Assembly: GCF_000429105.1 (NCBI RefSeq)
Contig: NZ_AUBF01000006.1
Span: 62,001-126,000, forward strand
Length of the DNA stretch: 64,000 nucleotides
Source: Schaalia suimastitidis DSM 15538
GTDB taxonomy: Bacteria; Actinomycetota; Actinomycetes; Actinomycetales; Actinomycetaceae
Direction of reading: 5' to 3'
Positions 11,719 through 46,336 of this stretch are shown in pieces. The notes under the pieces were generated by a model, which did no database searches, was not told the origin of the DNA, and worked only from the letters and a program-made list of their open reading frames with translations. Each line of letters starts with the position of its first letter. The first letter of the stretch is position 1. Position numbers and translations under genes: made by a program.

Positions 11719-11929
11719 GTGGACACACCGAATGGATTTGTGCCTTCCGTTTCGTGTGTCGACCTAAAGAAAAGAAGGCCAACATCTTGGCCTCGCACAG
11801 ATCAACACACCAAACGGATGTACAGCTACCGTTTCGTGTGTCAATGATGACCAACTGCTCCTTTTGCTCGGACGGCACAACCGATCAACACACCGAACGG
11901 ACATACAGCTACCGCACGCTGTGTCGACC
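11719..11929. repeat. Palindrome array A (three units, 82-83 bp period)
   Basis: Three ~47-bp imperfect palindromes with left arms like ATCAACACACCAAACGG and right arms like CCGTTTCGTGTGTCGACC. The CACACC cores sit at 11724, 11806 and 11889 (steps 82 and 83). A weak fourth left arm is near 11960. It fills much of the 11586-12197 gap between pknB and the convergent amidotransferase gene; the remainder (12060-12120) has short GACAGGC/GCCTGTC inverted repeats that could end transcription from either side. I see no gene here. Confidence 0.9.
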
Positions 11930-12197
11930 GCATTGCACGAGCATCCTCAATGCAGCCAACACACCACCGCACAGACCGGCAACCCGACGAAGATGACACC
12001 ACCTCGTCCATTACGAACCCACCGCGCAGCGGACTCAAATGCCCCCGCTCAGACAAGCCGCCCCACAGCCAACCTGACAGGCAAGCCCCCACAACCAGCC
12101 TGTCCAACTTGACAGGCATGCTATCCAGTAGGCTGACTCAACCCCTGGCTCACACCCATCCGAGCACGCCAATCTCCGGCGCCACAAACCGTCCTGT

Positions 12198-12839
12198 CTA
12201 CAAGCGTGCCCGCTGTGCAACCACAGGAGACAAAGAAGCGGCGCGAGCCACGGAGTCGTGATCCCCACAGGCAGCCAACCAGTTAGCAAACATCATGTGA
12301 CCCTGCTGGGTCATCACCGACTCTGGATGGAACTGGACACCTTCAAGCGGCGCCTCACGATGTCGAACGCCCATAATGAGGCCATTCTCAGTGCGGGCAC
12401 TCACCTCCAGCTCCTCGGGCAGTGTCGCTGGATCAATAGCCAAAGAGTGGTAGCGCGTCACCGTCAGTGGCGACGCCACCCCAACGAAAACACCACGCCC
12501 ATCATGGGTGATCACCGAGGTTTTCCCATGCATCAATTCAGGCGCATGACCCACAGTCGCACCACACAGCTCACCAAGCGCCTGGTGGCCCAAACACACA
12601 CCAAGCATCGGAATGGAGTGTGCTCGACAGTCAGCAATCACTTGCAAACTGGCACCAGCACCCTTCGGATCACCTGGTCCTGGGGAAATGAGGACCCCAT
12701 CGTAAATCGCCCCGGAGTACCAAGAAGGATCAACCTGGTCATTGCGGACGACATCAACACTTGCCCCCATATGGCGCAGATAGCCAACAATTGTCCACAC
12801 GAACGAGTCATAGTTATCAACACACAGTATGCGCACCAT
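12198..12839 (-). CDS. pabA: Aminodeoxychorismate/anthranilate synthase component II (glutamine amidotransferase)
   Basis: Class I glutamine amidotransferase that supplies ammonia to a chorismate-using partner for p-aminobenzoate (folate) or anthranilate (tryptophan). All landmarks are present: VDNYDSFVWTIVGYL, ISPGPGDPKGAG, nucleophile in GVCLGHQALGE, and the His/Glu pair in VQFHPES. 213 aa is standard. The gene occurs next to pknB in many Actinobacteria, where it is annotated pabA or trpG; without the large subunit nearby the two roles cannot be separated. It follows the small membrane protein gene by nine bases. Confidence 0.92.
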   Translation of the reverse strand: MVRILCVDNYDSFVWTIVGYLRHMGASVDVVRNDQVDPSWYSGAIYDGVLISPGPGDPKGAGASLQVIADCRAHSIPMLGVCLGHQALGELCGATVGHAPELMHGKTSVITHDGRGVFVGVASPLTVTRYHSLAIDPATLPEELEVSARTENGLIMGVRHREAPLEGVQFHPESVMTQQGHMMFANWLAACGDHDSVARAASLSPVVAQRARL

Positions 12840-12848
12840 CTGGCTACC

Positions 12849-13007
12849 TCAGACTGCCACGCTTGAAGCGCCAAGCTCAAAATAAGCCTGCGCCCAAGGG
12901 AAAACCCATTTAAACAGAGCAAAGACAATAGCTGCAACAATCACGAGCGCTTCGATGACTTTGAACCACGTCGGCCCCGGTAAGTGACGGAATATCCAGC
13001 CGTACAT
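12849..13007 (-). CDS. Small single-pass membrane protein (52 aa)
   Basis: An ORF begins at an ATG at 13005-13007 preceded by AAGAGGAGACC, a strong ribosome binding site. It encodes 52 residues starting MYGWIFRHLPGPTWFKVIEA, then a hydrophobic segment (LVIVAAIVFALFKWVFPWA) and a short polar tail. It lies between the sortase and amidotransferase genes on the same strand with short spacers, so it is part of that operon. Proline and tryptophan at the membrane edge suggest a defined topology. No function is known to me; it may assist the neighbouring sortase or division proteins. Confidence 0.75.
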   Translation of the reverse strand: MYGWIFRHLPGPTWFKVIEALVIVAAIVFALFKWVFPWAQAYFELGASSVAV

Positions 13008-13020
13008 CAGTGGTCTCCTC

Positions 13021-13770
13021 TTAGCTCTCAGGTTCTTCCAGTAAAACTGCGGGCTTCCCCGTAGATTTACTCATCCAGTACTTATATTTCAGGTGGACGA
13101 TGTACCGCTCTGTATTGCCCCACTCGGGATGGCAGGTGGTCATCGTCATCCATCGTTCCGTCGGCGTTTGTGACAGGGTGACATCCCCAGGAACAGGAGC
13201 AATGACACGGTAGTTTTCCGGATCAGTAGCCGAAACGATTTCCCAGTTGTCCACCTCGTACACGAGGTAGTGATCCTGGAGGTCAACGACTATTTCATCC
13301 CCCACCTGCATCTCTTCTACACGGCGGAAATTGTTGCCGTAGGAACGGCGGTGTCCTGCCACCGAAAAGTTCCCGATTTCACCAGGCTGAGCAGTATCCG
13401 GGTAGTGGCCCGCCCACCCCATGTCCAACACATCCGCCCCAACGCCTTGAGCGAGCGGAGTCTTCATCCAGTCCCATTTCGGGAAATGGATTAATCCATA
13501 CACTTCAGCATTTGCGAGGTTTGTCGGTGCGGGAGGAGGCTCGCTCGTTTCAATCACACCCTCACCTGTCGAGGCAGGGGCATGCTCCTCTTCAAATTGA
13601 GCAATGACAGCAGCGCGAGGCGCCTCCACCTCGTAACTCGTCCAGAAGGCCTGCCAGAACGCGAAAAGCGCCAAAATGACGGCGGCAGTGATCAGCAATT
13701 CTCCAATCACCCCGATTGTGCCGTAAACGAATGACCTTACCCGGGCGGGTCTGCGGATATGTCCGCCCAC
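13021..13770 (-). CDS. srtE: Class E sortase
   Basis: Membrane-anchored cysteine transpeptidase that attaches surface proteins to the wall; class E enzymes in Actinobacteria usually recognise LAXTG. One N-terminal membrane segment (about 21-42) is followed by a sortase beta-barrel of about 150 residues. The catalytic histidine is in VAGHRRSYG, the cysteine in TMTTCHPEW and the likely arginine in NTERYIVH. The GTG start abuts the DUF881 stop directly, so the two genes are translationally linked. Synteny with crgA and pknB is typical for srtE. Confidence 0.92.
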   Translation of the reverse strand: MGGHIRRPARVRSFVYGTIGVIGELLITAAVILALFAFWQAFWTSYEVEAPRAAVIAQFEEEHAPASTGEGVIETSEPPPAPTNLANAEVYGLIHFPKWDWMKTPLAQGVGADVLDMGWAGHYPDTAQPGEIGNFSVAGHRRSYGNNFRRVEEMQVGDEIVVDLQDHYLVYEVDNWEIVSATDPENYRVIAPVPGDVTLSQTPTERWMTMTTCHPEWGNTERYIVHLKYKYWMSKSTGKPAVLLEEPES

Positions 13771-14814
13771 TCACTCCACCACCTTTGCGTATGAGACCGT
13801 CGCATCCGTTGACGCCGCCGGCATATGCATCACTTCTTTCTTTTCGAGCTTCCAGCCCATTTTGTAGAGTGCCACATATTGCATGTAGTTCACCACACGA
13901 GGATTCGTCTCCACAGCAGTCACAAGTGCCGAAATATCGCCAATTGCTGCGATTTCGTAAGGCGGTGAGTACGATGCACCATCAACTAAAATCACATTTC
14001 CAATACAACGAATCACCGTTCGGCTGGACACGCGCACGCCCTGAACGGTCATTGCCTCGGCACCGCCGTCCCACAGCGCATTCATCACGTCCTCAATGTC
14101 TTGTTGATGAATAACCAGGTCGTTTGGTGTCGCACCCTCTGGTATGTCACCCGCAGGAGCATCCGTCAGCGTAATCACCACACCCGGTCCACTAATGGCC
14201 GATCTGTTGAAATTACTTGCCGACGCAGACGTCAGTGGCGCAGCGAGGTCAGTATCGCTGTGCTCGGCAACCTGGTTGGCGATGGCGTCGCGTTCAGCCT
14301 CGAGTTCGGCGACAACCGCCTGCCGATGTCTCACCAAATTGACGAGGTCACCGTCAGTTGCGGCACCACTTTGACTTGCGGTGGTGGCTGAGGCATGAAA
14401 AAGCAAACCGGAGGCGGCAGTGACAAGGAAAACAGACAGTGCTGATCGCAGGTTCAGGGCTCGGTGTGGCGAGGCGTTGTCTGTGCTGGACGTGCCCGAG
14501 ACGGTGGCTGTTCTAATGCCACCACCCCGGTCGGAAGTTGTGGTCTCGGTGGGCAATGTCGTTGAAATAGGCTCGTCAGTGGATGTTTTGGTAATGGCTG
14601 ACTCGCCGGTCGGCATCGTGGTAGCTAATTGGTCGGCGGTGTGCGCCTGGTGGCTGTCATCTCCCACGGTTGCGCACGCCTCGTCGCTGTCACCTGCCCC
14701 ACTGGCCCAAGCCTCGTCACTGTCAAGCACGCTGTCATTTCCATCCGTTGCAACAGCATCTTCAAAGGAGGCCGCCTCATCGTCATGCGGTTTCGTGGGA
14801 TGATTTTTCCCCAA
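13771..14814 (-). CDS. DUF881 family membrane protein with long acidic N-terminus
   Basis: A 347-aa protein. Residues 1-110 are acidic and Ser/Thr-rich, with near-repeats around SDEA; one membrane segment lies at about 124-142. The C-terminal about 200 residues form the DUF881 domain with the signatures IRCIGNVILVDGASYSPPYE and AIGD. DUF881 proteins sit beside crgA and sortase genes across Actinobacteria (Rv0012 in M. tuberculosis) and are thought to act at the cell envelope or divisome; the biochemical role is unknown. The low-complexity cytoplasmic extension is longer than usual. Confidence 0.9.
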   Translation of the reverse strand: MGKNHPTKPHDDEAASFEDAVATDGNDSVLDSDEAWASGAGDSDEACATVGDDSHQAHTADQLATTMPTGESAITKTSTDEPISTTLPTETTTSDRGGGIRTATVSGTSSTDNASPHRALNLRSALSVFLVTAASGLLFHASATTASQSGAATDGDLVNLVRHRQAVVAELEAERDAIANQVAEHSDTDLAAPLTSASASNFNRSAISGPGVVITLTDAPAGDIPEGATPNDLVIHQQDIEDVMNALWDGGAEAMTVQGVRVSSRTVIRCIGNVILVDGASYSPPYEIAAIGDISALVTAVETNPRVVNYMQYVALYKMGWKLEKKEVMHMPAASTDATVSYAKVVE

Positions 14815-14941
14815 TTCTTTGTCACCTCCCTTTTGTCCACTTTGATAGATTCCCCTGCCAGACTAGGCTAGGCGCAGTACCCCTGCTCGCTGTACACGCC
14901 TAGATGTTGTTTTCGAGCCACCTATCAACGGAAGGACTGCC

Positions 14942-15205
14942 GTGCCTGAGTCAAAGAAGCGTAAGAAGAACGGCCATGAGGTCGCCGATGACACAACGTT
15001 GCCTCGTTGGACTGATGGCATACCGTTGTCGCCAAGTTGGTGGGCTCCAACCTTTATCACCTTGCTGCTTGTCGGTCTTGTTTGGCTGCTCGTCTATTAC
15101 ATCTCTGGTGGTCAATACCCAATCCCCGGCGTGAACTGGTGGAACCTGGTCATCGGCTTGTCCGTAATGATGGTCGGCTTCATAATGACAATGAAGTGGC
15201 GCTAA
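14942..15205 (+). CDS. crgA: CrgA cell division protein
   Basis: Small integral membrane protein (87 aa) that in mycobacteria and Streptomyces recruits or stabilises septal components such as FtsZ, FtsQ, FtsI and CwsA. A basic N-tail (PESKKRKKNG) is followed by two membrane segments (about 32-53 and 66-84) separated by a short loop, GGQYPIPGVNWW, conserved in CrgA. The start is GTG, preceded by GGAAGGA. It is transcribed divergently from the DUF881-sortase group. Confidence 0.95.
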   Translation: MPESKKRKKNGHEVADDTTLPRWTDGIPLSPSWWAPTFITLLLVGLVWLLVYYISGGQYPIPGVNWWNLVIGLSVMMVGFIMTMKWR

Positions 15206-15453
15206 CTCGATCAATCACACCGCCCACGCGGAACTGAAATCGCACTCCCGCACTCGTCGCGCGAGTAACGCAGAAACCAGCCTCTGAGTTCCCACTACCT
15301 TCACGGAACCCCAAACGCACGGTTGCCGCGGGACTGAGAGTGAATGTGCACGTGCCCTCACAGGATTTTTTGAACCTTCGGTTGAGCCACGGCCGCAGAC
15401 AATTGCTGTAGTAGGCACCGCTTATCTGGGAAAACGATGCTCTTCGGAGCTAG

Positions 15454-15477
15454 CGTTGCCCGGCATAACGGGCAACG
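15454..15477. other. Hairpin-forming inverted repeat in a long intergenic region
   Basis: CGTTGCCCG and CGGGCAACG are perfect complements around a 6-base loop GCATAA. It lies about 250 bp after crgA without a T tract; it may be a weak terminator or the remnant of a mobile palindrome. Apart from this, array B and a DnaA box, I see no gene in 15206-16595. Confidence 0.5.
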
Positions 15478-15786
15478 TGAGTAAAATCTGCGTCTCCTGG
15501 GATAACACGTACTGCTCGTCGGAACCCGCAGTGCCCGTCGTGCTACGCGTTGGCCGTTGACGCTTATGCGGCTTTTTCGCGACCGTGCACTGATGTTTTC
15601 AACGAAAACCTGCCCACGCCTCGTCAATTGACCCTAGCGTGTCCTAGATCCGGGCGCGTGCTTGTCTGCGACCCTGGAGCAAGTGCGCGCTGAATCGTCG
15701 AGCAAAGGTGGATCCTCCACGACGACAGTGGGTTGAACTGATGTTGATCCACAATGACCACCACCTCCTCGCTTCCCATGTCTACC

Positions 15787-16102
15787 GTCGACACACCAAA
15801 CGGATTTCTCCTTGGCCGTCCTTGGTGCCTTTCACGCCTAGCTCGTCCTATGGGTAATAAAACCATCCAGTACTCTCGTCTCTCGCCCGGGTCGACACAT
15901 GAAACGGTCGGCGTTCTTCCGTTTGATGTGTCGACCCAATACGGACAGACTCGCCAACGCCGGTATCTCAAAGGTGAACACACGAAACGGTCGACACTCA
16001 TCCATTCGGTGTGTCGACCCGACACAGAAGTAGGCAACAGACGTGCTATCTGATGGATCAACACACGAAACGGTTGTGGATAGTCCATTCGGTGTGTTGA
16101 CC
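15787..16102. repeat. Palindrome array B (four units, 83 bp period in the last three)
   Basis: Cores at 15792, 15896, 15979 and 16062. The last three steps are exactly 83 bp; the first is 104 bp and its right arm has decayed. Left arms carry GACACATGAAACGG or AACACACGAAACGG, right arms CCATTCGGTGTGTCGACC or similar. Loops (12-13 bp) and spacers (about 36 bp) differ between units. Confidence 0.9.
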
Positions 16103-16171
16103 GGGATAATTGTTGAATTGGGTGTATTTGCTCCAAGTGCCGTCAAAGCAATCCACAGCTATTTCCCCAGA

Positions 16172-16180
16172 TGTGGATAA
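16172..16180 (-). promoter_or_regulatory. Perfect DnaA box outside oriC
   Basis: TGTGGATAA, the complement of the consensus DnaA box TTATCCACA, about 42 kb from dnaA. A related ATCCACAGC lies 20 bp before it. Single perfect boxes occur by chance; with a near match beside it in an intergenic region it could titrate DnaA. Confidence 0.4.
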
Positions 16181-16595
16181 GTTACAGGCGTGTATTTTCC
16201 CTTTGAGACGTCGTGACCCGTAGTCCTGCCACACCCCTGCTTGATCCGTATTGTCCCAACCGGAGGTAACATCTCAACCAGGCGTGACGGTGATGTCATC
16301 ACATGAAACAGGCACGAGTTACCACAGAACACGACCTCGACATCGAATCACCATGCGCGAACGACGGTGAGTAGTGTCGACAAACCGAATCCTTATACGC
16401 ATGAACCCACGACATCGGTCGCAGAAGCGCCGGCGGCAAAGGCCCCGGTATTGGTAGCAGCTCCAGCAGCACAACAGCGGCAAAACTCCCAGCAATCGCA
16501 ACAACAAAATGATCCACTAGCATGCACCTCAGCGATGGCAGTACCTGCGGCAGCGGCCCCTGCAAGCGGAGCGCAGGCATCTAACCAATGTTGAA

Positions 16596-16976
16596 CTAGT
16601 GTTCCTCGTCATACCGCCGTCGGTGAGCCTCCACTTCGTCCACATGCTGCTCCGACCATCGACGCAACATAGCTAACGGTTCAACGACCGTTGATCCAAA
16701 CTCGGTCAGTTGATAGTCCACTCGCGGCGGAATACTCGCTGTAACCTTGCGGATCACCAATCCATCACGCTCCATTAGCCGTAACGTTTCAGTCAATACC
16801 TTTGGAGAAATCCCCTGAACTTTCTCCTGTATTTCTTTAAAACGCACGGGGACCCTCTGCGCCAAAACCGCAACAATCAACGGCGTCCATCGGCCTGTGA
16901 GATGCCGCAGCACAGTGCGTGACGGGCACTTCTGTTCAAGGACATTGGCTCGCCGTGAGCTATTTTCTGCACTCAC
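16596..16976 (-). CDS. HxlR-family transcriptional regulator
   Basis: Winged-helix regulator of about 126 aa with the HxlR pattern: an N-terminal cysteine in QKCPSR, LTGRWTPLIVAVLA, the recognition region FKEIQEKVQGISPKVLTETL, and YQLTEFG. Members such as YodB and QorR sense quinones or electrophiles through this cysteine. I start at the GTG at 16976, preceded by GGAGGT at a perfect distance; an upstream ATG at 17027 would overlap the promoter region. It is divergent from an NAD(P)H-binding oxidoreductase gene, the usual target arrangement. Confidence 0.88.
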   Translation of the reverse strand: MSAENSSRRANVLEQKCPSRTVLRHLTGRWTPLIVAVLAQRVPVRFKEIQEKVQGISPKVLTETLRLMERDGLVIRKVTASIPPRVDYQLTEFGSTVVEPLAMLRRWSEQHVDEVEAHRRRYDEEH

Positions 16977-17031
16977 TAATACCTCCAGCGAAGGATCACT
17001 TTGTCGCAGATCACAAATATCTTCCAATTAC

Positions 17032-17045: not shown

Positions 17046-17105
17046 TCAGTATCTAATCCATACCATTGTGGTGTCAATAGGAAACAGCACCCAAAGGAAA
17101 ACCTC

Positions 17106-17875: not shown

Positions 17876-17884
17876 TGGGTACCG

Positions 17885-20423: not shown

Positions 20424-20559
20424 CGCTGTGCTGTACGTCGGTTCCTGCTGCATCCCAAGGTTGAGCCTTTCAGTCACCTGGATATGAACCTCTTGCCTCT
20501 CGCACTCTCGGCTTTCAGACCCACGTCTATCAACCGCACAGCCATCGCACGCCCACCAC

Positions 20560-20796
20560 GTCGACACATGGTGCGGAAATCAGCGGGCGCTAATCGCCGT
20601 CCGCAGAAATGTCGACACATGGTGCGGTGCTCCCCACGCCGTTTGCTGTGTCGTTGCTGTCGCAAAAGCAATGAGACACCCCCGCACAAAAGGGTCGACA
20701 CATGGTGCGGTAGAAGAATGTCCAAAGCATGTGTTGACTCAGATATCGTCAGACTGATATGGCCCGTTTAACAGATGTGAACACGGCGAACGGTGC
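20560..20796. repeat. Palindrome array C (variant arms, 83 bp period)
   Basis: Three copies of GTCGACACATGGTGCGG start at 20560, 20611 and 20694; the last two are 83 bp apart. A degenerate arm (GAACACGGCGAACGG) has its core at 20782, again 83 bp on. Right arms are CCGTTTGCTGTGTCG near 20637 and AGCATGTGTTGACTC near 20726; another CCGTTTGCTGTGTCGATCC stands alone at about 20942. This subfamily has ATGGTGCGG instead of ACCAAACGG. The 20424-21181 gap otherwise shows no gene. Confidence 0.82.
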
Positions 20797-21181
20797 GAAA
20801 CCCTGAAAAATGCTGCTAGGAAAAGAAGGTTCGCATGGAATACCTTCGCCCTCATACCCACAAAAATGCTGTGCAGTAGCGTCATCGATGGGTCGGAATG
20901 CCTTCGGCGGAAAAGATTTCCACCTTCGTTGGATCGGCAGGATCCGTTTGCTGTGTCGATCCGCAGACAAACAGCAACCTATCCCCGTGACACAACACTA
21001 TTCGGTTACAACGTCTTCCAGTGCAAATGCCATGAGGTCTGAAATTTGCGCAATGCCACGCCCGTTGACGCCGTAAATAACAACAACCGACGGAAAATAT
21101 GCATCGCAATCAAAAGCAACGTCTGCATAACTATTGTCTACTGATCACAATGTCGATAATGGTTGATCGTATTACGAAGCG

Positions 21182-22267
21182 TTACGACATGCTGCGGCGG
21201 CGCTGATTTCGCCGACGCCACTGCCGATCAGCAGCCTTCAGGTGACGTTCAACTTGTGACAACAGTGCATCAGCGTGCGAAAAGTCAGTCCATCGCACAC
21301 GAATCACAGTCCAACCCAACGCTTCTATCTCACGTTGGCGCCGATTTTCCTTCTCTTCGGCACGATGAATATCTTCGACGGTGGTACCGTATTTTGCTCG
21401 TCCATCAAACTCCAATGCAACATGTTGCCGAGGAAACGCGATATCAACGAAATACGGTGCGTCGGCATCAGTCCGAGCAATGGGGTGCTGCATCTCCATT
21501 CCTGAAAATCCCGCCTCCATTAACAATGCAAGCAGACGAGCCTCCCCTGGAGAGTCACACGCGGGTGAGGCGCCATGAAGCACCCAACGAGCTTTTCTTG
21601 TGTCACGTGCGGTCTTGGGCAGGGATCTAATCAACGCCAACAGGTGTTGACGAGATCTTTCCGCCTCCCGGTGACATTGCTGTGCCTTCCACTTATTGAA
21701 TCGGCTCACCCACTGCAGGGACGTGCACGCAAGCGAGAACGCCGTGATTCGGTCGTGAATTAAAGATCCGACCATCGTGGCAACATCTAAGCGATCACAG
21801 ACAATATCGAGGATGCGAGTCGTTGTCGGGCCAACATGGGGTCGGTGGTGGACTTTTGCAATTGCTTCCTTTGCGAGGACTTTTCCTTCGAATGTCACTT
21901 CCGGAAGATGAGCTTTGGTGGTGCACCTCCGATTTTGTGTGCGCAGATATACGGTGCCGTCTGACGAGGTGGTGGGAAGTCCGTGCATCACGGCTGCACT
22001 GACGCCGGTTGGGACGCAGGCGGGTTTGAGCCGTGACAACGCAATGATGCGCGCAACCTCAATCACCTTATCGATGTCATAACGATTCGTACACGATTGC
22101 AGTATCGACGCGCAAAGGTAGCATCCGCGGTAGATACGAATGTAGCCCCGTCGGTGGCGGACATTGCGGAATGTTGCTTGTGAGGTAAACACCATGTTTT
22201 CTCGGACAAGTGCCACGGTAATTCGTGACGCTTCATGAGCATTGCTGTGCCGGTATTCCCGAAACAT
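21182..22267 (-). CDS. AbiEi-like / DUF559 (Vsr-like endonuclease fold) protein
   Basis: A 361-aa protein. The N-terminal half resembles the AbiEi-type antitoxin winged-helix module of actinobacteria (RHRRGYIRIYRGCYL, PTGVSAAVMHGLP). The C-terminal about 110 residues match the DUF559/PD-(D/E)XK fold: FVDIAFPRQHVALEFDGRAKYG supplies the Asp and Glu, EKENRRQREIEALGWTVIRVRW follows. Such orphan fusions are frequent in Actinobacteria and have no proven role; nuclease activity and an antiphage role are inference. No AbiEii toxin gene is beside it. It is flanked on both sides by long non-coding regions with palindrome arrays. Confidence 0.75.
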   Translation of the reverse strand: MFREYRHSNAHEASRITVALVRENMVFTSQATFRNVRHRRGYIRIYRGCYLCASILQSCTNRYDIDKVIEVARIIALSRLKPACVPTGVSAAVMHGLPTTSSDGTVYLRTQNRRCTTKAHLPEVTFEGKVLAKEAIAKVHHRPHVGPTTTRILDIVCDRLDVATMVGSLIHDRITAFSLACTSLQWVSRFNKWKAQQCHREAERSRQHLLALIRSLPKTARDTRKARWVLHGASPACDSPGEARLLALLMEAGFSGMEMQHPIARTDADAPYFVDIAFPRQHVALEFDGRAKYGTTVEDIHRAEEKENRRQREIEALGWTVIRVRWTDFSHADALLSQVERHLKAADRQWRRRNQRRRSMS

Positions 22268-22574: not shown

Positions 22575-22820
22575 GTTCAGCACACCATTCGGATCGACAC
22601 TCCTTTTCAACACACCATTTGGATGCCGATCGTCCATTCAATGTGTCGATCACTGTTTCGTCCACCTCGTGCCAGAATTATCTGCTAAGTCAACACACCG
22701 AACGGCATCGTTTCGACCGTTCTGTGTGTCGACGCGTCAGAAGGCAGGTAGGATCTTGACGCTTCACGAAGGTCAACACACTGAACGGCACTCTTTTGTC
22801 CGCATGCTGTGTCGATCAAG
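22575..22820. repeat. Palindrome array D (83 bp period)
   Basis: CACACC-type cores at 22581, 22611, 22694 and 22777; the last two steps are exactly 83 bp, the first is 30 bp. Right arms include CCATTCAATGTGTCGATC, CCGTTCTGTGTGTCGAC and CGCATGCTGTGTCGATC. It lies in the 22268-23181 gap, in which I see no credible gene. Confidence 0.88.
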
Positions 22821-22854: not shown

Positions 22855-22900
22855 AGGAGACGACCGAATGTTGAAGGTGGAGACGACCGAATGTTGAAGG
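22855..22900. repeat. 23-bp tandem duplication
   Basis: Two adjacent identical copies of a 23-bp unit beginning GGAGACGACCGAATG follow array D. No associated gene is visible. Confidence 0.85.
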
Positions 22901-24179: not shown

Positions 24180-26216
24180 TTGGCAGTTATGCGCGTGTTT
24201 TCCGCGTGCCACAGCCACGGAGGCACGCATATTCTTGATACGGTTCGACACGTTCCTACCCATCTCTCCTCGCCTGCGTTGCGTGCGCAGGTGATTCTGC
24301 GACGTTTTGCTTCGGCTACAAACTTGCTGATCTGCGGTCAGCGTTTCCTCATCATTTGCGGAATTGACGAGGCCACAGCCACTCACCTGCATCATTTGCT
24401 GTGCCGCTTGGGTGCGTTTCCGGAGTTGTTGCACCCGTTGACGTCACATAGAGATCGTTGGCTGCCCAGTGGGGATCGCGCTGCGGTGAGTGCTATGCAG
24501 TACGCAACGTCTACCGATCCGTGTGTCGACGCAGGCGACAAAACGGCAAAGGAAGCCGATCCGTGTGTCGACCAGGATGTTTCGCCTGTGGCCACTACCG
24601 ATCCGTGTGTCGATCGGGACGATGTGGGGGGGTTGCGTAGCTCATCTGCAACAATGACGGGAGGTTTTGCCCGTTATAGCGCAGTCTTTGATTTTGTTGG
24701 CACCATAGTCGAAGCTGTCGACACTGTCCTTGTGCGTATCCCACGAGCATTCGTGACACATGTACCCACAAGCTCTTCGGCAATATCGACGATTCCCGCG
24801 CCTGTCACGAGCACGACAGTCACCCACACGAACTCCATCTCTTCCATTGCTCATCCAGACCAGCCACCTTTTGATACAGCAAGTAGTTCAATTACCGCCA
24901 ACACCGCGAGCGACCCCCACAACCCATCCACCGCCAACACCGCAAGTGCTTTACTCCCCGGTGACCCCCGCAAGGTCATTCGTATTTTCAGCCCCGACGG
25001 ACATGAACTTCACGACCCTCACAGTCGTACTCCAAATAGCGCCATTGAATATCTCACTTGGGCACGCCGTCACATGCCCGTCACGTCCGAGGCAGCCAAG
25101 CGCCTGAAAGCTTCAGGTGTACTTCAGGGTCGCAGCATCGGATTGTCCCTCGTGTTGGAGCCGAAAACCGCCGTCCTCGCCATGTTCCTCGCCGAAGCAG
25201 GCGCCACAGTCAGTGTTTTTGGCCATGCTCAAGAGATCCGGGAAGACGCCGCCTACCTCAAAGGGGTGGGTATCCCAGTATTTGGTGCATCAACTGCCAC
25301 ACGCCAGGAAGAAACCGAGTATGCCACCGCCTTCCTCGCCCAACAGCTCGATGTGCTTCTCGACGATGGTTCTCACCTGATTCGCTTAGCTCATGACTCG
25401 ACCCTCGCACCTGGTGCCTTGGACAACATGGTCGGCGCCGCAGAAGAAACGACCTCCGGGCTGCGCCCCTTGCGTGACATGGACTCGGCCCGCACTCTCC
25501 GTATTCCAGTGATTGCCAGCAATGATGCGCGATCGAAAACGCTTTTTGATAATGCTTATGGCACTGGACAGTCGTGCTTGTTTACCATCCTCGATCTCAT
25601 TGATCCTCACGAGGCGGGGGTTGATATGGCACGTCAACGTGTCCTCGTCATTGGATATGGTGACGTGGGTAAGGGTTTTGCTCGACTAAGTCGTGCCATG
25701 GGCGCCGCTGTGTGTGTCGCTGATACTGATCCGGTGCGTGCCCTTCAAGCTCGCCTCGACGGCTTTGAGGTTGACGAGGCCCCCACCCTCGCGTCGCGCT
25801 GCACGTGGATTATTTCAGCAACAGGGGTGCGCCACACGATTGACGAGTTGATCCTTCAGGCAGCCCCAAATGAAGCAGTATGCGCTGTAATCGGTGGTGT
25901 GGCGCAAGAAATTGCCATTGACCAGACGGTAGTAGCAGGGGCGCATATGGGACCCTCGTCGATGCGTGCCGTTGACACGTTGACGTTACCCAACGGGAAA
26001 CGTTTGACAATCCTGGACAAGGGCGGGTGTATCAACTGCACTGCTGGCGAAGGTAACCCTATCGAAATCATGGATTTGTCTTTTGGTGTACAAAGCGCCG
26101 CCATTGAATATTTACTTTCGACGGAACTGGAACCTGGAGTAATTCCTGTGCCCGACGAGTCAGACCGTGCCGTTGCCGCATTGGCCCTCAACCACATGAT
26201 TGGTCGTACCCTATGA
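24180..26216 (+). CDS. Divergent S-adenosylhomocysteine-hydrolase-like protein with long N-terminal extension
   Basis: Residues about 260-678 resemble adenosylhomocysteinase, which splits SAH to adenosine and homocysteine. EETTSGL, the catalytic Lys/Asp pair in RSKTLFDNAYG, and the NAD-binding GYGDVGKG are present. The usual C-terminal lysine/tyrosine tail is missing, and the loop normally NLGCATGHP reads INCTAGEGNP, so activity may differ. Residues 1-100 are an unrecognised domain and about 105-230 a low-complexity linker including three DPCVD repeats derived from the palindrome family. The start is uncertain; internal starts up to residue 255 are possible. The next gene, an amidohydrolase related to SAH/MTA deaminases, overlaps by ATGA, suggesting a shared purine-thioether salvage role. 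Confidence 0.78.
   Translation: MAVMRVFSACHSHGGTHILDTVRHVPTHLSSPALRAQVILRRFASATNLLICGQRFLIICGIDEATATHLHHLLCRLGAFPELLHPLTSHRDRWLPSGDRAAVSAMQYATSTDPCVDAGDKTAKEADPCVDQDVSPVATTDPCVDRDDVGGLRSSSATMTGGFARYSAVFDFVGTIVEAVDTVLVRIPRAFVTHVPTSSSAISTIPAPVTSTTVTHTNSISSIAHPDQPPFDTASSSITANTASDPHNPSTANTASALLPGDPRKVIRIFSPDGHELHDPHSRTPNSAIEYLTWARRHMPVTSEAAKRLKASGVLQGRSIGLSLVLEPKTAVLAMFLAEAGATVSVFGHAQEIREDAAYLKGVGIPVFGASTATRQEETEYATAFLAQQLDVLLDDGSHLIRLAHDSTLAPGALDNMVGAAEETTSGLRPLRDMDSARTLRIPVIASNDARSKTLFDNAYGTGQSCLFTILDLIDPHEAGVDMARQRVLVIGYGDVGKGFARLSRAMGAAVCVADTDPVRALQARLDGFEVDEAPTLASRCTWIISATGVRHTIDELILQAAPNEAVCAVIGGVAQEIAIDQTVVAGAHMGPSSMRAVDTLTLPNGKRLTILDKGGCINCTAGEGNPIEIMDLSFGVQSAAIEYLLSTELEPGVIPVPDESDRAVAALALNHMIGRTL
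24503..24617. repeat. Palindrome-family half-sites embedded in coding sequence (42-bp period)
   Basis: CCGATCCGTGTGTCGAC-like right arms recur three times, with GTGTGTCGA at 24521, 24563 and 24605, exactly 42 bp apart and in frame, giving TDPCVD, ADPCVD, TDPCVD. A left-arm-like GCGACAAAACGG lies between the first two. The period is about half the 83-bp unit seen in the intergenic arrays. Confidence 0.75.
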
Positions 26217-31255: not shown

Positions 31256-31280
31256 ACTTGCCGACAGCGCCCACCTTCCC

Positions 31281-31452
31281 GTCGACACACCAAACGGTCC
31301 CCGAAGACGACACTCCTCTTGATCAACACACCAAACGGAATTGGATCTTCCATTCGGTGTGTCGACCGCACAAATAGGCATCCAAATCATCGGATTCCCA
31401 ACAGATCAACACACCAAACGGAATTGGGTCTTCCATTCGGTGTGTCGATCGT
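31281..31452. repeat. Palindrome array E (41 and 83 bp steps)
   Basis: Left-arm cores at 31286, 31327 and 31410, steps 41 and 83 bp. The second and third units share nearly the same loop (GAATTGGRTCTT) and right arm CCATTCGGTGTGTCGA. The 31154-31651 gap between the convergent ATPase and lipoprotein genes otherwise holds no gene. Confidence 0.9.
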
Positions 31453-36667: not shown

Positions 36668-37133
36668 GATCAACACACCAAACGGTTCAACACACCAAAC
36701 GGCACACACTGTTCCGTTCGGTGTGTCGTCCTTCGCCAGGAATGCTCTGCCGCCTCGTTCCAAATACGATCAACACACCAAACGGACGCCCTCCTACCGT
36801 TCGGTGTGCCAACCTCTACGATCGTCGGCACGACTTCTCACTCGTCGCCCCTTCGACACACCTAATGGACGCAGACCTACCGTTTGGTGTGTTTACACGG
36901 CTAGAAAAGAGTGCCTTGCCCGTCCTCGATACGCATCGACACACCAAACGGCATCTGTCCTTCCGTTCGGTGTGTCGACCCCGGCTAGTAATGGTCTATT
37001 GCCTCGTTCCAAACACGACCAACACACCAAACGGAAATGATGCGACCGTTCCATGTGTCGACCAGTTGAAGGAAGGGCAACAAGTGCCGCCAATATGTGC
37101 GTCGACACAGCACACAAGCGGTGTGGTCGACGA
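36668..37133. repeat. Palindrome array F (six phased units, exact 83 bp period)
   Basis: The best array. Left-arm cores stand at 36691, 36774, 36857, 36940, 37023 and 37106, each exactly 83 bp apart, with an extra left arm at 36674. Each unit is a 45-48-bp imperfect palindrome, for example 36767-36814 with arms ATCAACACACCAAACGG and CCGTTCGGTGTGCCAACC. Loops are 12-14 bp, spacers 35-37 bp. Spacers 36732-36767 and 36981-37016 share GCCTCGTTCCAAAYACGA, three units apart, showing tandem descent. The last unit is decayed. Confidence 0.95.
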
Positions 37134-41152: not shown

Positions 41153-41209
41153 ATGGACGATCCAAGCATGTGGTGAAGGCGGCCGCTCAACAAGGTCCAC
41201 TTCGTGGCA

Positions 41210-41302
41210 TAGCGCCCGCTCAACAACACACTACCTGCGGCACCGCTCACCCAACAAAGCCCGCCACGTGCAATACCGCCCACCCAACAAAGCCCGCCAC
41301 GC
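41210..41302. repeat. 33-bp tandem repeat (about three degenerate copies)
   Basis: CCGCTCACCCAACAAAGCCCGCCACG at 41243-41268 recurs with one change at 41276-41301 (period 33); a more diverged copy begins near 41210. It occupies the gap between the ATPase and the YchJ-like gene and may overlap the promoters of both. Confidence 0.8.
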
Positions 41303-41328
41303 GGTGCGGGTAACGCTATTGTGCAGTT

Positions 41329-41814
41329 ATGGTTATCTCCGCTACAGCACCTTGTCCTTGCTGTTCTGGTGCATCATTTGAGTCGTGTTGCAGCCCTTAC
41401 CTGGACGGATCTGTTCCAGATAGTGCCGAGGCGGTGATGCGTTCGCGCTATACAGCATTTGCTGTCGGTAATGAGGACTACTTGTTTCGCACCTGGCATC
41501 CGCGCACTAGGCCACAACCACCGTATTTTGATCCGGCGATTAGCTGGTGTGGCCTGACTATTGTTGAGGTCGTTGATGGTGTTGGTGATTGTCCGACAGG
41601 AATTGTTGAGTTCGTTGCTTCCTATCAGTTTCGGGACGAGGCGGGGGCACTTCACCAGGCGGACGGGCGCGGCAGCAGTCAACGTCCCCATGCGGGCGCG
41701 CGCAGCAAAGAACGCACACCCCACCGCCACCAACTCCGCAGCGGTCAGATCCGCGAGCGTTCCCTCTTTACGCGACGAGGCGGACGTTGGGTTTATGTGG
41801 AGGCGATCTCTTAG
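41329..41814 (+). CDS. YchJ-family (UPF0225) protein with an in-frame insertion
   Basis: A 161-aa protein with the N-terminal SEC-C zinc motif (CPCCSGASFESCC) and the YchJ/NTF2-like body: AVMRSRYTAFAVGNEDYL, TWHPRTRP, GIVEFVASYQF. Normally the last strands run directly from LHE into SxF..GRWYYV. Here about 33 Arg/Gln/His-rich residues (QADGRGSSQRPHAGARSKER and following) lie between ALHQ and RERSLFTRRGGRWVYVE. The insertion keeps frame but has a composition unlike the rest, so the gene may be damaged or carry a tolerated insertion. Function of the family is unknown; SEC-C suggests binding to the translation or secretion machinery. Confidence 0.8.
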   Translation: MVISATAPCPCCSGASFESCCSPYLDGSVPDSAEAVMRSRYTAFAVGNEDYLFRTWHPRTRPQPPYFDPAISWCGLTIVEVVDGVGDCPTGIVEFVASYQFRDEAGALHQADGRGSSQRPHAGARSKERTPHRHQLRSGQIRERSLFTRRGGRWVYVEAIS

Positions 41815-41879
41815 ATCACCCTCGCGACGTGCAATATCCAATTCCCAGGAAACTCTAAGGGAGTCTGGGGGTGTCTACA

Positions 41880-42045
41880 CAGGTTTGTGACCTACCGTTA
41901 TTTCCACAAGGGCGGGAGCCGGAAGCGACCCAACAGGGGGCCGCAAGAGCCCCCAACTGGAAAGGTTGCTGCATCGGGAGAACTCGCACTGTGTTGATGG
42001 GATACTTTGAGGGGCCAGCCATTAGGCTGGCCCCTCAAAGTTTGC
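41880..42045 (+). ncRNA. Putative structured small RNA, copy 1, with terminator
   Basis: A non-coding segment after the YchJ-like gene that recurs at 42965-43126. The copies share a 29-base identical block (41975-42003), the loop YGCAAGA closed by a changed stem (GGGGGC/GCCCCC here), and end in related hairpins. Here the terminator stem is 17 bp (42004-42020 with 42025-42041, loop ATTA) followed by TTGCC. Conserved loops with altered stems suggest selection on RNA structure. I do not recognise the class; it is not a B12, TPP, SAM-I or T-box leader by eye. No rightward gene follows directly, so it looks like a free-standing RNA. Confidence 0.6.
42004..42041 (+). terminator. Terminator of putative small RNA copy 1
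   Basis: A perfect 17-bp stem, ACTTTGAGGGGCCAGCC with its complement, and the 4-base loop ATTA. It could also serve the convergent AlkD-like gene from the other side. Confidence 0.85.
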
Positions 42046-42156
42046 CTCCCCATAATCGGAGCAATAACCCGGACTATCGGGGACATTGGCCAACCCCTAG
42101 GTGAAGGTCACCAAAATATGAGTGGATTCTCTCCACACCCCACAAGGGTTCAACCG

Positions 42157-42870
42157 TTAATTCGGCTTCGCCAAAGGTGCCCGGGGCAACCCTGCACGTA
42201 CTAAGCGCAACTGCACCTTCGCCTCGTCACACACACGATAGGACTCCAGTGCTTTTTGGATCGCTTTGCGACGGATAGGCATATCCAATCCGCGGTCTTC
42301 AAGGAGCCACGGCAAAGCCGCTTCCTCCTGTTTCGCGCATGCTTCCGCAAAATACCACGCCACCATCATTTGCAGATAGTACTCGGTGGTATCGATGGCG
42401 CCGACTAAGTCAAGAAACTCGGTGCGGAAGTGCTCGGTGAGGAAATGGGACATTAGGATGCCGACGCCGAAACGGCGAGTGTACAGGTGCGTGTGAGCGA
42501 TCCACCGCCGTGCTGCAGCCTCCAGCATTTGAGGATCACGCCCCAAGGCTTTGGGGTTCAAAGAGTCGCAGGTAGCCCAGTTGTCGATATATGGCACGAA
42601 TGCCTCAACGTGCGCAAGACAGGTGTTGAAGTCTTTTTCTTGGGTGATGAGGAAAGCGTGGAGTTGATTCTCATCGAAATAGTGGTGCGGCACCTCGGCA
42701 AAAAATGTGAAAGCGTCGTCGCGGCGATGTCGCCATATCTCTTTGGCTAAAGAACGCAAAATTGGCGTGCGTATGCCGAGAACCGTTTCTGGATCGACTG
42801 TCGGCATTAATTTGGCAATAAATGCCGCATTATCGGGATCAGCGAGGGCTTCAATTTCTTCACGAAACAT
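42157..42870 (-). CDS. DNA alkylation repair protein (AlkD-like HEAT-repeat glycosylase)
   Basis: A 237-aa all-helical protein of the DNA alkylation repair family. GIRTPILRSLAKEIWRH, HAFLITQEKDF, VPYIDNWATCDSLNPKALG and RRFGVGILMSHFL match the conserved HEAT-like helices; the Trp/Asp pair in DNWATCD is in the position of the AlkD catalytic region. AlkD removes bulky or positively charged alkylated bases without base flipping. It stands alone on the minus strand between the two copies of the putative small RNA. Confidence 0.88.
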   Translation of the reverse strand: MFREEIEALADPDNAAFIAKLMPTVDPETVLGIRTPILRSLAKEIWRHRRDDAFTFFAEVPHHYFDENQLHAFLITQEKDFNTCLAHVEAFVPYIDNWATCDSLNPKALGRDPQMLEAAARRWIAHTHLYTRRFGVGILMSHFLTEHFRTEFLDLVGAIDTTEYYLQMMVAWYFAEACAKQEEAALPWLLEDRGLDMPIRRKAIQKALESYRVCDEAKVQLRLVRAGLPRAPLAKPN

Positions 42871-42964
42871 AGGATTATCTTTGCAAATCGGCCACTGGAC
42901 GCCAATGCTTTGACGCGCCCTATTTTTCCATAGGATTTTCTAAGGTTAGACCAGGGCTTTTCTT

Positions 42965-43126
42965 AAGGTTCACCACGTAACTTATGTACCAACAAGGCAG
43001 GAAGCCAGAAGTAATCCAACCGGGGGTTGCAAGAGTTTCCTTCGCCGGGAAGGGTCGACATTCGGGAGAACTCGCACTGTGTTGATGGGATGCCTCAAGG
43101 GGTCAGCCAATCGGCTGGCCCCTTTT
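42965..43126 (+). ncRNA. Putative structured small RNA, copy 2, with terminator
   Basis: Second copy of the RNA-like element at 41880-42045. It keeps the 29-base block at 43063-43091 and the TGCAAGA loop, here closed by GGGGGT/GTTTCC through G-U and U-G pairs. It ends in a 12-bp hairpin (43097-43108 with 43113-43124) followed by TTTT. The copies agree over about 140 bases but diverge at the 5' end, so the true 5' boundary is unknown. The PAP2 gene starts 40 bases after the terminator, so a leader role for that gene is possible. Confidence 0.6.
43097..43126 (+). terminator. Intrinsic terminator of putative small RNA copy 2
   Basis: A stem AAGGGGTCAGCC with GGCTGGCCCCTT (one G-U pair), loop AATC, running into TTTT. 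The classical form supports rightward transcription of this element. Confidence 0.85.
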
Positions 43127-43166
43127 GGTGCGTAGAAGATATTGAGAAGAAAGTAGGCTAGCGGTT

Positions 43167-43835
43167 ATGTCTCGCATTCACACCGTGTATTTACCCGCTG
43201 TGGCGCTGTTTGTGATATCTGCAGTGACACTGGCGGGTTACGTGGTCACCCCCACCCCCACAATTGATCAATGGGTTCTTCAATCGTTTGTCGCTATGCG
43301 CACGCCTGGCACTACAGTGGTGATGGAGGCTGTGACATGGATATTTGACCCTTGGAGAGCGACGGTACTAGCCGTAGCACTTGGGGTTGTCACCGGTTGG
43401 GTGACGAGGCAGTGGCGAGCGGGGGTGTATGTCACCGGTTCGGTTGCGGTGGCAGCGTTGATCACTAGCGGCATTAAGAATCTTCACGATCGTCTGCGGC
43501 CACCGGAGTTTTTGCGACTCACCGTAGAACACACGTACTCGTTCCCGTCTGGTCATACCACGGCTGCTGCTGCAATCGGTGTTTCCCTTGCCATTGTTTT
43601 CATACTTTTTTCCCGCAAAGTGACACTCGTTTCTCGCGCACTGGTATGGATCGGGGCCGTCGCTCTGATAGTCCTGATCGGTGTGACACGCATGTACCTC
43701 GGGGTGCACTGGTTGACCGATGTCCTGGCCGGCGCATGCGTGGGCAGTGGTGCGGCACTGATCCTGTCCCCCATTTTGCTCAAGCGCCCTGTGCTGACCA
43801 AAATGCAAAGGTATGCGTCCTCAGAGAATGCCTGA
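43167..43835 (+). CDS. PAP2-superfamily phosphatase
   Basis: Membrane phosphatase of 222 aa with six hydrophobic segments. The three PAP2 motifs are complete: KNLHDRLRPPE (KxxxxxxRP), PSGHTT and SRxxxxxH in the form TRMYLGVHWLTDVLAG. Enzymes of this group dephosphorylate undecaprenyl diphosphate, phosphatidic acid or phosphatidylglycerol phosphate at the outer face of the membrane. The exact lipid cannot be inferred. A short GGGCATA/TATGCCC hairpin at 43858-43876 follows; the rest of 43836-44159 shows no gene. Confidence 0.92.
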   Translation: MSRIHTVYLPAVALFVISAVTLAGYVVTPTPTIDQWVLQSFVAMRTPGTTVVMEAVTWIFDPWRATVLAVALGVVTGWVTRQWRAGVYVTGSVAVAALITSGIKNLHDRLRPPEFLRLTVEHTYSFPSGHTTAAAAIGVSLAIVFILFSRKVTLVSRALVWIGAVALIVLIGVTRMYLGVHWLTDVLAGACVGSGAALILSPILLKRPVLTKMQRYASSENA

Positions 43836-44159
43836 GAGACGAAGAGAACCTCACACAGGGCATAGACCTTATGCCCACCACACGTAGCGATTGACCCGCG
43901 AAATACTGATTTCTTCCACTCAGCGGCTCAGTATCGTGGGCCATATCTGACTGTGCCAAGTGATTTCAGATGCCCTGCCCCATGCGCGCCTCGGGCAGCC
44001 GGCCTTGGCGTGCTCCGCTCCCCCCTTTTTTGCACATTGCCTGCACAGGTACCCATAGCCTCGTAACACACACTCCTCACGTCGCAGTACCAACACCTTC
44101 ACCTATTCACCATCGTTGTGGCGCAGTAGACTACGACAATCAACGCTGATGGAGGCCTT

Positions 44160-45275
44160 ATGTCTGCACAACTTTTCAAAAAACTTGTTATTCCTACACG
44201 CAGCGGCAACGGACTTACCATGAAAAACCGGGCAATCGTTGCCCCCATGTGTCAGTACAGTGTGACAGCAGGCGACGGCAAACCGACCGACTGGCATTTC
44301 GTTCACTACGGCGCGTTGGCCGCAGGTGGCTTCTCCTTGGTCACCGTTGAAGCAACAGCGGTCGAGGCGCGAGGCCGCATTTCCCCATTTGATCTTGGCC
44401 TATGGGACGACGAGCAGATCGAAGGGCACAGGCGCCTCGTCGATTTTGCTCATAGCCTTGGCACGAAGATCGCTGTTCAACTTGGCCATGCCGGCGGTAA
44501 GGCATCCACCCCACCGTGGCTACCTGGAGCCTTAGGTGGCACCCTCGGTATCAACGACGGCGGATGGTCCACGGTGGCACCCTGCGCTACGCCAACCCTG
44601 CCCGACCTGGATACCCCCCAGGCATTATCCGCCTCTGAAATTGACCAGGTGGTAGCCTCTTTCGCTGCGGCGGCACAGCGAGCGAATGAGGCGGGGTACG
44701 ACGCTATCCAACTCCACGGCGCCCACGGATATCTGATCCACCAGTTCCTTTCGCCGCTGAGTAATACACGTGACGATACTTACGGCGGCAACTGGGATGG
44801 TCGGACGCGTTTTATTCACGAGGTTGTGGCGGCCGTAGCCGACATATGGCCCAAAGACAAAGTGCTGGGACTGCGTATCAGCGCAACTGACTGGATTGAC
44901 GGTGCATGGGATGTGTTCCAGTCGGCGCGCCTCATTCGCTCGTTGTGGGAAGAGTCTGGCCTGACGTGGGTGGATATTTCTTCGGGCGGACTCACCGACC
45001 TGTCGGCCATTCCTATTGGTTTTGGCTACCAGGTACCTTTGGCGGCGCAGCTTGTCCGCGACCTGGCCGATACCGATGTCGTCATCTCGACGGTCGGGAT
45101 GATCAACAACCCTGTGCAAGCAGAAACAGTGCTGCGTACACGGCAGGCTCACGCCTTATCTTTTGGTCGTGTTGCCTTGGGTAATCCTCACTGGGCATCA
45201 CATGCTGCCGCGCAATTACGGGTACATCCAGAGCATATGCCAAGCCCCGCACCCCTGTGGCGCGCCCAGTATTAG
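44160..45275 (+). CDS. Old Yellow Enzyme family NADH:flavin oxidoreductase (YqjM-like)
   Basis: FMN-dependent ene-reductase of 371 aa. Landmarks: KNRAIVAPMCQYSV with the YqjM-type cysteine, GGFSLVTVEATAV, QLGHAGGKAS, the substrate-binding HGAH in QLHGAHGYLIHQFLSP, and the flavin-phosphate region ISTVGMINNP with ALSFGRVALGNP. Such enzymes reduce activated C=C bonds in electrophiles as a detoxification step. The start is preceded by GGAGG. Its end overlaps the convergent DUF1801 gene by four bases. Confidence 0.94.
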   Translation: MSAQLFKKLVIPTRSGNGLTMKNRAIVAPMCQYSVTAGDGKPTDWHFVHYGALAAGGFSLVTVEATAVEARGRISPFDLGLWDDEQIEGHRRLVDFAHSLGTKIAVQLGHAGGKASTPPWLPGALGGTLGINDGGWSTVAPCATPTLPDLDTPQALSASEIDQVVASFAAAAQRANEAGYDAIQLHGAHGYLIHQFLSPLSNTRDDTYGGNWDGRTRFIHEVVAAVADIWPKDKVLGLRISATDWIDGAWDVFQSARLIRSLWEESGLTWVDISSGGLTDLSAIPIGFGYQVPLAAQLVRDLADTDVVISTVGMINNPVQAETVLRTRQAHALSFGRVALGNPHWASHAAAQLRVHPEHMPSPAPLWRAQY

Positions 45276-45943
45276 TGCCGTTCCCACGCCTCGGCAATCA
45301 TCACCCGCAATACTGAGAGGTCAACCTTGGCAAGATTGGTGACGTAGAGGCACCCCACCCCTAACTTATGCGGGCCGAGGCGGGCGACGTTTTCAGCAAA
45401 ATGCGGCCCACTTTGAAGACCGTAAAGGCTGAGACTTGCTTTCCGGGGACTAAATCCGACAGCGAACCAATCGCCTTCGCGACCTGAATCAGACTTGTAG
45501 TGGACCTCGCCATAGCCCACCATGGTCGGTCCCCACATGGTTGCTTTTTCACCGGTGACCTGGTCAAATAAGTCGAGGAGAGTAAGACCGTCATCAATGC
45601 GACGCGGCCACGTCAATTGTCGAATAAAATCCTCGGGTGCAATATCAGTGGGGCGCGTCTTGATGTCCTTGGCAACCTTGCCTGTATGTCCTTTCGTGAT
45701 GGTGACCTTCGTTGTGGCAGCCTCAATGTCAGCATCTGTGGGACTATTACTCATATCTCCGCCTTTTGCCCGCAATGCTGCCAGCACGCGGTTCAAGCCT
45801 TTCGCACCAACACCATGCAAGGACAACAATTGGCGATAGTCTGCCCCGTTGAGCTGGTCAAGGCTATGGAATCCCGCGAATGCTAAGGCAGAACGCAGCG
45901 GCGCTCCAACACCAGGGATATGTAGCGAGGTATCGTCAGTCAT
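45272..45943 (-). CDS. DUF1801 protein with N-terminal helix-hairpin-helix
   Basis: A 223-aa protein. Residues about 1-65 form a helix-hairpin-helix module (IPGVGAPLRSALAFAGF, LHGVGAKGLNRVLAALR), as in TfoX C-terminal domains. Residues about 95-223 are a DUF1801/YdhG-type domain (TLLDLFDQVTG, MWGPTMVGYGEVHYKS, FSPRKASLSLYG, LGPHKLGVGCLYVTNLAKVD). The combination is typical of actinobacteria; DNA binding by the HhH is plausible but no function is proven. It is convergent with the OYE gene, sharing four bases. Confidence 0.87.
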   Translation of the reverse strand: MTDDTSLHIPGVGAPLRSALAFAGFHSLDQLNGADYRQLLSLHGVGAKGLNRVLAALRAKGGDMSNSPTDADIEAATTKVTITKGHTGKVAKDIKTRPTDIAPEDFIRQLTWPRRIDDGLTLLDLFDQVTGEKATMWGPTMVGYGEVHYKSDSGREGDWFAVGFSPRKASLSLYGLQSGPHFAENVARLGPHKLGVGCLYVTNLAKVDLSVLRVMIAEAWERH

Positions 45944-46124
45944 GGCACCAGATTAGTCCCAATGCCACCTTGTGGTGACAAGGACACTTGCCACTGTGTT
46001 CGTGGGAGCCACTGAAGTCATTGTGAGACACGTGTAGATACTTGAGATATTGCTTGTTACAGACAGTGACATCCCTTTCTTTGATGTTGGCGTCTTCACC
46101 CCCAGCATCTATCAGGTCTATTAG

Positions 46125-46336
46125 GTCGACACACCGAACGGTACTTTGACGACCATTTGGTGTGCTCACCCTAGGTCACCACATTTGTATTTCCCCGGAT
46201 CAGTCTGATCGACACACCGAACGGACCTTCGTCGTCCGTTTCGTGTGTTGATCATCAGCATTTGGCATTAGAAGCGGCCATCGCGCACGGTCGACACACC
46301 GAACGGTACTTTGACGACCGTTTGGTGTGTCGACCG
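46125..46336. repeat. Palindrome array G (three units, 83 and 82 bp steps)
   Basis: Cores at 46130, 46213 and 46295. Units 1 and 3 have almost the same sequence (left arm GGTCGACACACCGAACGG, loop TACTTTGACGA); right arms are CCATTTGGTGTGCTCACC, CCGTTTCGTGTGTTGATC and CCGTTTGGTGTGTCGACC. The last palindrome is nearly perfect. The 45944-46764 gap otherwise shows no gene. Confidence 0.92.

Follow-up and report, generated by a model that had tools for sequence, protein, structure and literature searches.

What purpose could be served by a family of palindromes that recurs, at an almost fixed distance, in the gaps between genes beside the replication origin of Schaalia suimastitidis DSM 15538? Most of them lie in a 64,000-bp stretch of contig NZ_AUBF01000006.1 (positions 62,001 to 126,000; here called the window, the contig being C2 and window position 63803 being C2:125803), and a preliminary description of this stretch had proposed that they form a phased platform for a dimeric protein or else hairpins in a long RNA. 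From our analysis, which covers one genome of one species, we consider it plausible, if not quite probable, that the arrays, which flank the origin on one side, are phased binding platforms of double-stranded DNA and help to arrange or anchor this origin. Of the readings weighed below this is the best supported, because the length of the step between palindromes is held and because the two arms of each palindrome vary independently, as half-sites.

Pattern, matrix and covariance searches agreed in placing the palindrome in all seven regions of the window from which it had been reported. The core 12-mer pattern matched the window 47 times, where 100 shuffles gave 8.6 +/- 2.8 matches; a 47-column matrix, trained on 19 of the palindromes, had 22 plus-strand matches, one of them a lone right arm and the other 21 the palindromes of the seven arrays, and it matched nothing in five mononucleotide shuffles. 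The array at 20560 is the weakest, a degenerate one of two palindromes and lone arms. We then built a covariance model from the 21 window palindromes and ran it on the whole genome (2,294,128 bases, 11 contigs), scoring the best 150 of 991 first-look candidates at E <= 1. Since the window palindromes match this model by construction, the new information lies elsewhere: in six further palindromes outside the window, making up two extra arrays (C2:37776-38071 and, as array B, C2:59402-59531) and bringing the genome-wide count to 27 palindromes in nine arrays, and in the remaining 2.2 Mb, where no further palindrome appeared among the scored candidates at that threshold.

The structure of the unit is strict. 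Each palindrome is made of an 18-nt left arm, an 11-nt loop and an 18-nt right arm (47 bp), the loop having this length in 27/27 units rather than the approximately 12 nt first estimated. All 18 within-array steps measure 82-83 bp (83 bp in 16, 82 bp in two) and the spacers accordingly 36 nt in 16 cases and 35 nt in two, as the preliminary description had it. The predicted peak in the profile of distances is also there: the autocorrelation of 9-mers over 186 kb has its maximum at 83, with 99 pairs; 42 and 84 come next, with 82 and 80, and these two values are partly due to another repeat, with 42-/84-bp spacing, at C2 ~71178-71300 (window ~9178-9300), inside the open reading frame (ORF) that precedes a pknB-like gene. 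Every unit has ACACA at positions 6-10, GG at 17-18, CC at 30-31 and TGTG at 38-41, and the inner five bases of both arms vary among the 27. What is conserved is thus the half-site TCRACACA-N5-YGG, and it is not confined to palindromes: a lone left arm begins five of the arrays (2 to 6), and half-sites are also found singly and, as direct repeats at 42-bp steps, inside a coding region. All nine arrays are intergenic by our own ORF set, as had been described; the three right-arm half-sites inside a gene are the exception. They fall in the N-terminal extension of an adenosylhomocysteinase-like gene, where they encode a repeat of the peptide DPCVD that was not seen in the four relatives compared.

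The relation between the two arms bears on whether the unit is better regarded as DNA or as RNA. On the plus strand 78.2% of arm cells are paired, against 79.8% when partners are shuffled, and on the minus strand 86.5% against 87.3%. Pairing is therefore no better than with shuffled partners, which means that the arms vary independently of each other, as two copies of one half-site would, and not as the sides of a conserved hairpin.

The statement that length is better kept than sequence holds well for the spacers and less well for the loops. Mean ungapped identity between spacers is about 10/36, near chance, both within and between arrays. A weak likeness among them remains: two of 153 spacer pairs outscore the highest of 20 shuffled sets, the mean score is -2.7 against -4.5 for shuffled spacers, and one pair, 6.1/6.4, is clearly similar (26/36, ungapped). 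Loops, in contrast, are in some cases common to units of one array. In the pairs 7.1/7.3, A1/A3, A2/A4 and 5.1/5.2 the left arm is identical at 17-18 of 18 positions and the loop at 10-11 of 11, while the flanks agree at only 6-12 of 36 (ungapped); 6.1/6.4 is the reverse case, its loops being unlike (4/11). The best of 256 orientation assignments has arrays 3 and 7 reversed, so that a common direction for all arrays is not established. A shufflon-like inversion finds no support: the best score for reverse-complement likeness among spacers and flanks is 10, where shuffles reach 11, and loops compared in reverse agree at 8/11 at most.

Location provides the second line of evidence. The family had been taken to be dispersed, yet every palindrome found sits within C2:37,776-108,335, a segment of 70.6 kb in a genome of 2.29 Mb; the chance of nine random arrays landing in one such stretch is about 7e-12. 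Measured from the dnaA-dnaN gap, the array midpoints are at distances of 10.8 to 81.1 kb, all to one side. We take this gap to contain oriC, as in actinobacteria generally; gyrA, gyrB, dnaN and dnaA occupy C2:110.8-120.7 kb, and GC skew changes from mostly negative to mostly positive at ~114-120 kb of C2. The half-site alone is distributed likewise: allowing up to two mismatches, it has 57 matches genome-wide (the reversed control pattern has nine), of which 50 are in the arrays or the coding half-sites and seven, all with two mismatches, are elsewhere, one in the segment and six outside it. Confinement to one flank of oriC favours a nucleoid or anchoring function over ordinary gene regulation.

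Among the gaps of at least 100 bp in the segment (n=33, using our ORF selection with eight ORFs removed by hand as spurious), arrays are present in six of eight convergent gaps, two of 16 tandem and one of nine divergent. Because only one of the nine occupies a divergent, promoter-bearing gap, and two occupy tandem gaps, the arrays are not placed as operators. The excess in convergent gaps over the rest (6/8 against 3/25, P 0.002) becomes weaker when gaps are weighted by length, six of nine arrays then being in 39-44% of the bases (P 0.08-0.15).

If the platform is phased, the other distances between like-oriented arms should also approach whole helical turns. There are six distinct ones, 104, 51, 30, 41, 17 and 42 bp, which at 83/8 bp per turn amount to 10.02, 4.92, 2.89, 3.95, 1.64 and 4.05 turns. 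A whole-turn test on these six gives P 0.009 with the period fixed and 0.05 when a period from 10 to 11 is fitted; the two values become 0.003 and 0.02 if 42 is counted twice, and 0.048 and 0.16 if the lone right arm of array 3, at a distance of 222 bp (21.4 turns), is brought in. These distances support phasing mildly, the constant 83 bp being the main evidence; the phasing test and the convergent-gap excess are side evidence.

We propose, then, that the recognised unit would be the 17-18-bp half-site GGTCRACACA-N5-YGG, whose two contact blocks would be about one helical turn apart, and that two such half-sites, inverted and with 11 bp between them, would make one palindrome for one dimeric protein. 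Consecutive dimers, 83 bp or eight turns apart, would sit on the same face of the helix, and might touch each other across the 36-bp spacers. Nine platforms and the isolated half-sites would in this way mark 70 kb on one side of oriC, their most likely job being like that of RacA at its ram sites, the gathering, condensing or tethering of the chromosome near the origin. We infer the protein binder, its dimeric nature and its role in origin organisation. The system would act beside an ordinary ParABS, which this genome also has: three canonical parS sites (C2:125803, 127075 and 127543) stand across dnaA from the arrays, a search for the parS pattern with up to one mismatch found these three places only and none inside the arrays, and there is one ParB-domain match in the genome. 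A second ParB was considered and rejected: each of nine genomes, this one included, has one such match. Likewise rejected, as a candidate binder, was a DUF559/AbiEi-like gene, which has matches in 33 of 35 genus genomes, again including this one, and so does not track the arrays. This gene, with a DUF559/MTES_1575-like nuclease domain, occupies window 21182-22267, flanked by arrays 3 and 4, and the genes that border it are neighbours in one relative (G028).

How far does the family extend? With the best 150 candidates scored per genome, the palindrome had no match in 34 congeners, the present genome being the sole positive among 35 species of the genus. A looser, fixed-gap pattern applied to 213 genomes of the family matched this genome only (20 matches), and an exact pattern found no array in 84,980 species genomes, a scan from which records of the present genome may be left out; it found two single palindromes in unrelated bacteria, and had no match in viral contigs. 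As the family pattern matches 20 of the 27 palindromes of this genome and the exact pattern 15, diverged arrays elsewhere could be missed. Array 6, compared with phages and plasmids, had no match there, and within its own genome matched only arrays of this family. Six relatives, each over 60 kb (one of these stretches reaching dnaA), were also examined for paired palindromes of any sequence. None appeared at the strict setting; a looser one, which recovers seven of our nine arrays, gave a single pair in G009 and, in G021, eight overlapping palindrome-like pairs with a 51-bp step, all in one place (C1 ~74830-74950) that may be coding. The orthologous arrays that the preliminary description had looked to were thus sought and not found. 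At approximately the syntenic place of array 3 another relative, G017, has a short repeat (TCAACTGGTCAAGGT; C1 ~98380-98500) with a step of ~32 bp, which is a different motif. Nor did the open-access literature that we searched describe such arrays.

Several results weigh against the proposal of phased platforms. The sharing of arm and loop by units whose flanks are unlike is not predicted by a pure binding model. The 17-bp and 222-bp arm distances do not fit whole turns, and the phase test itself, made post hoc on six to eight values, gives P between 0.003 and 0.16, according to the distances entered and to the use of a fixed or a fitted period. That six of the nine arrays occupy convergent gaps would be expected of a neutral insertion as well. 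The part of the segment's genes that was scanned contains ordinary genes of metabolism, housekeeping or regulation, and revealed no binding protein. Lastly, the motif was found in none of the 34 congeners searched, whereas origin-organising systems are usually conserved, so that a fast-evolving motif must be assumed.

Part of this evidence is better accommodated by a mobile element, the strongest competing explanation, which we nevertheless consider unlikely. The palindromes would be copies of a non-autonomous, locally spreading element, similar to repetitive extragenic palindromic (REP) sequences or to miniature inverted-repeat transposable elements (MITEs); an enzyme would measure from a bound copy and lay a new 47-bp unit at a fixed distance, making the spacers unrelated from the start and the 83 bp an insertion ruler with no function of its own. 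The four pairs of units alike in left arm and loop and not in flanks are its strongest point, for these units seem to have been copied or converted without their spacers. The excess in convergent gaps and the presence in one species only, among the genomes searched, also suit it, as does a comparison of gene order: from C2 ~64 kb to dnaA the chromosome is syntenic with that of a relative, compared with which there is additional DNA at several of the array sites (for example ~0.66 kb against ~0.08 kb after the pknB-like gene). Other results speak against it. The Y1 (RAYT/IS200) transposase profile PF01797 has no match in the genome, a control search with it being positive in five of 14 known genomes; outside the segment, the half-site search at up to two mismatches showed no surplus of arms from which the ends of a parent MITE or insertion sequence might be made up; and the scanned genes of the segment are of the ordinary kinds already mentioned. 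Local spreading also leaves the confinement to 70 kb beside oriC unexplained.

It is improbable, in our judgement, that the half-sites near oriC serve for titration or timing, holding a replication or cell-cycle protein and releasing it when they are copied. The model for such a role is the DnaA-titrating datA region, and it would have to operate here through another motif. Many clustered sites beside the origin are what titration would call for; the sites nevertheless do not form one block but are distributed over 70 kb, the motif differs from the DnaA box (consensus TTATCCACA), and no result links it to replication.

A still more doubtful explanation is the second of the original proposals, in the form of a long non-coding RNA or 3' untranslated region with evenly spaced hairpins. 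Palindromes with 17-bp arms and 11-nt loops have the appropriate shape, and plus-strand A-C mismatches exceed G-T (57 against 19), which would make the minus strand better paired by way of G-U wobbles. The same asymmetry is a difference between left and right arms, the very signal on which orientation was judged, and we have not used it as independent evidence; two of the nine arrays show the opposite bias, and 43 of 459 arm cells are neither Watson-Crick nor A-C/G-T. Covariation is absent on both strands, half-sites exist by themselves and within a gene, and Rfam, searched with the window at gathering scores, yielded two tRNAs only and no family over the arrays. The hairpin proposal is not supported. 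That the arrays are CRISPR-like, with 47-bp repeats and acquired 36-bp spacers, is suggested by spacers constant in length and near-random to one another and is largely refuted, to the point of being barely credible, by repeats that differ within arrays (in loops and, in most units, inner arm bases), by the tiny size of all nine arrays, by the genome's sole Cas1 match being on another contig (C9) by a different array, and by array 6, the one whose spacers were searched, having no phage or plasmid match.

Table 1. Palindrome arrays, coding half-sites and context features of the window (window coordinates).
Feature	Position	Strand	Palindromes at	Steps (bp)	Other arms and remarks
Array 1	11718..11929	.	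11718, 11800, 11883	82, 83	
Array 2	15786..16102	.	15890, 15973, 16056	83, 83	lone left arm 15786
Array 3	20559..20961	.	20610, 20693	83	degenerate; lone left arm 20559; partnerless left arm 20776 (step 83); lone right arm 20944
Array 4	22575..22817	.	22605, 22688, 22771	83, 83	lone left arm 22575
Coding half-sites	24514..24615	-		42	three right arms (CCGATCCGTGTGTCGAY) in adenosylhomocysteinase-like gene
Array 5	31280..31450	.	31321, 31404	83	lone left arm 31280
Array 6	36668..37063	.	36685, 36768, 36851, 36934, 37017	83, 83, 83, 83	lone left arm 36668
Array 7	46124..46335	.	46124, 46207, 46289	83, 82	array closest to dnaA
gyrB	51495-53525				context; with dnaN, next after dnaA
dnaN	55696-56832				context; with gyrB, next after dnaA
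dnaA	57199..58671	-			context; origin side of the cluster; NCBIfam
parS, canonical	63803..63816	.			context; GTTTCACGTGAAAC; other side of dnaA from the arrays

The genes flanking array 1 are convergent and encode a pknB-like kinase and a class-I glutamine amidotransferase. Other repeats adjoin some arrays: a 23-bp tandem repeat (GGAGACGACCGAATGTTGAAGGT) at 22856-22900, directly after array 4; upstream of array B, a terminator-like inverted repeat (C2:59253-59314), with perfect 24-bp arms and T residues after them; and two more long inverted repeats at C2 ~59620-59720.

Were a binder to exist, the arrays would constitute a second system for marking the origin, one built of rigidly phased arrays instead of scattered single sites, a shape not met in the literature and genome searches that we made. 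It would then be testable whether actinobacteria evolved one-sided origin marking independently of sporulating Bacillus, where it is known from RacA. More specifically, the arrays could represent a new centromere-like or origin-organising system of one lineage, in which phased arrays of dimer sites and a fast-evolving protein-DNA pair work in parallel with ParABS; we regard this narrower version as possible, though on the unlikely side. If, on the other hand, the mobile-element explanation is true, the arrays would show a short palindrome being copied to a measured distance while its flanks stay behind, which is also unusual. Under either reading the array sequence is a ready bait.

Among known systems, the arrays are explained neither by REP/RAYT or the genome's own CRISPR nor by canonical parS or the Rfam families. 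With REP, BIME and REPIN elements they have in common intergenic palindromes, sometimes in regularly spaced groups; and the reports on these elements describe some REP dimers with spacers similar in length and different in sequence (PMC3733652) and tie the elements to RAYT transposases (PMC2817692, PMC3733652, PMC3116915). REPs, however, usually number more than 100 copies per genome (PMC2817692), whereas here there are 27, all in 70.6 kb, and no GTAG or CGTC tag is conserved within 18 columns of either edge of the 27 aligned units. Repeats with spacers of constant length recall CRISPR, but here the repeats are degenerate and the nine arrays small; the genome's own CRISPR array, at the end of C9 (within C9:1-9000), has 29-bp repeats and 61-bp steps and is ~1.3 kb or less from the only Cas1 match. 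The parS sites of ParB resemble the arrays in being palindromic and near oriC, and differ in being three canonical 14-bp sites in a separate place, C2:125.8-127.6 kb. The nearest functional precedent is RacA with its ram sites, which are 14-bp inverted repeats. They lie mainly within 250 kb left of oriC in Bacillus subtilis (PMC4949633). They are short single sites over ~250 kb, whereas ours are 47-bp palindromes in 83-bp arrays; the two resemble each other in that many specific sites occupy a long segment, most of it to one side of oriC, in a genome with a separate ParABS, and this is a likeness of layout rather than of membership.

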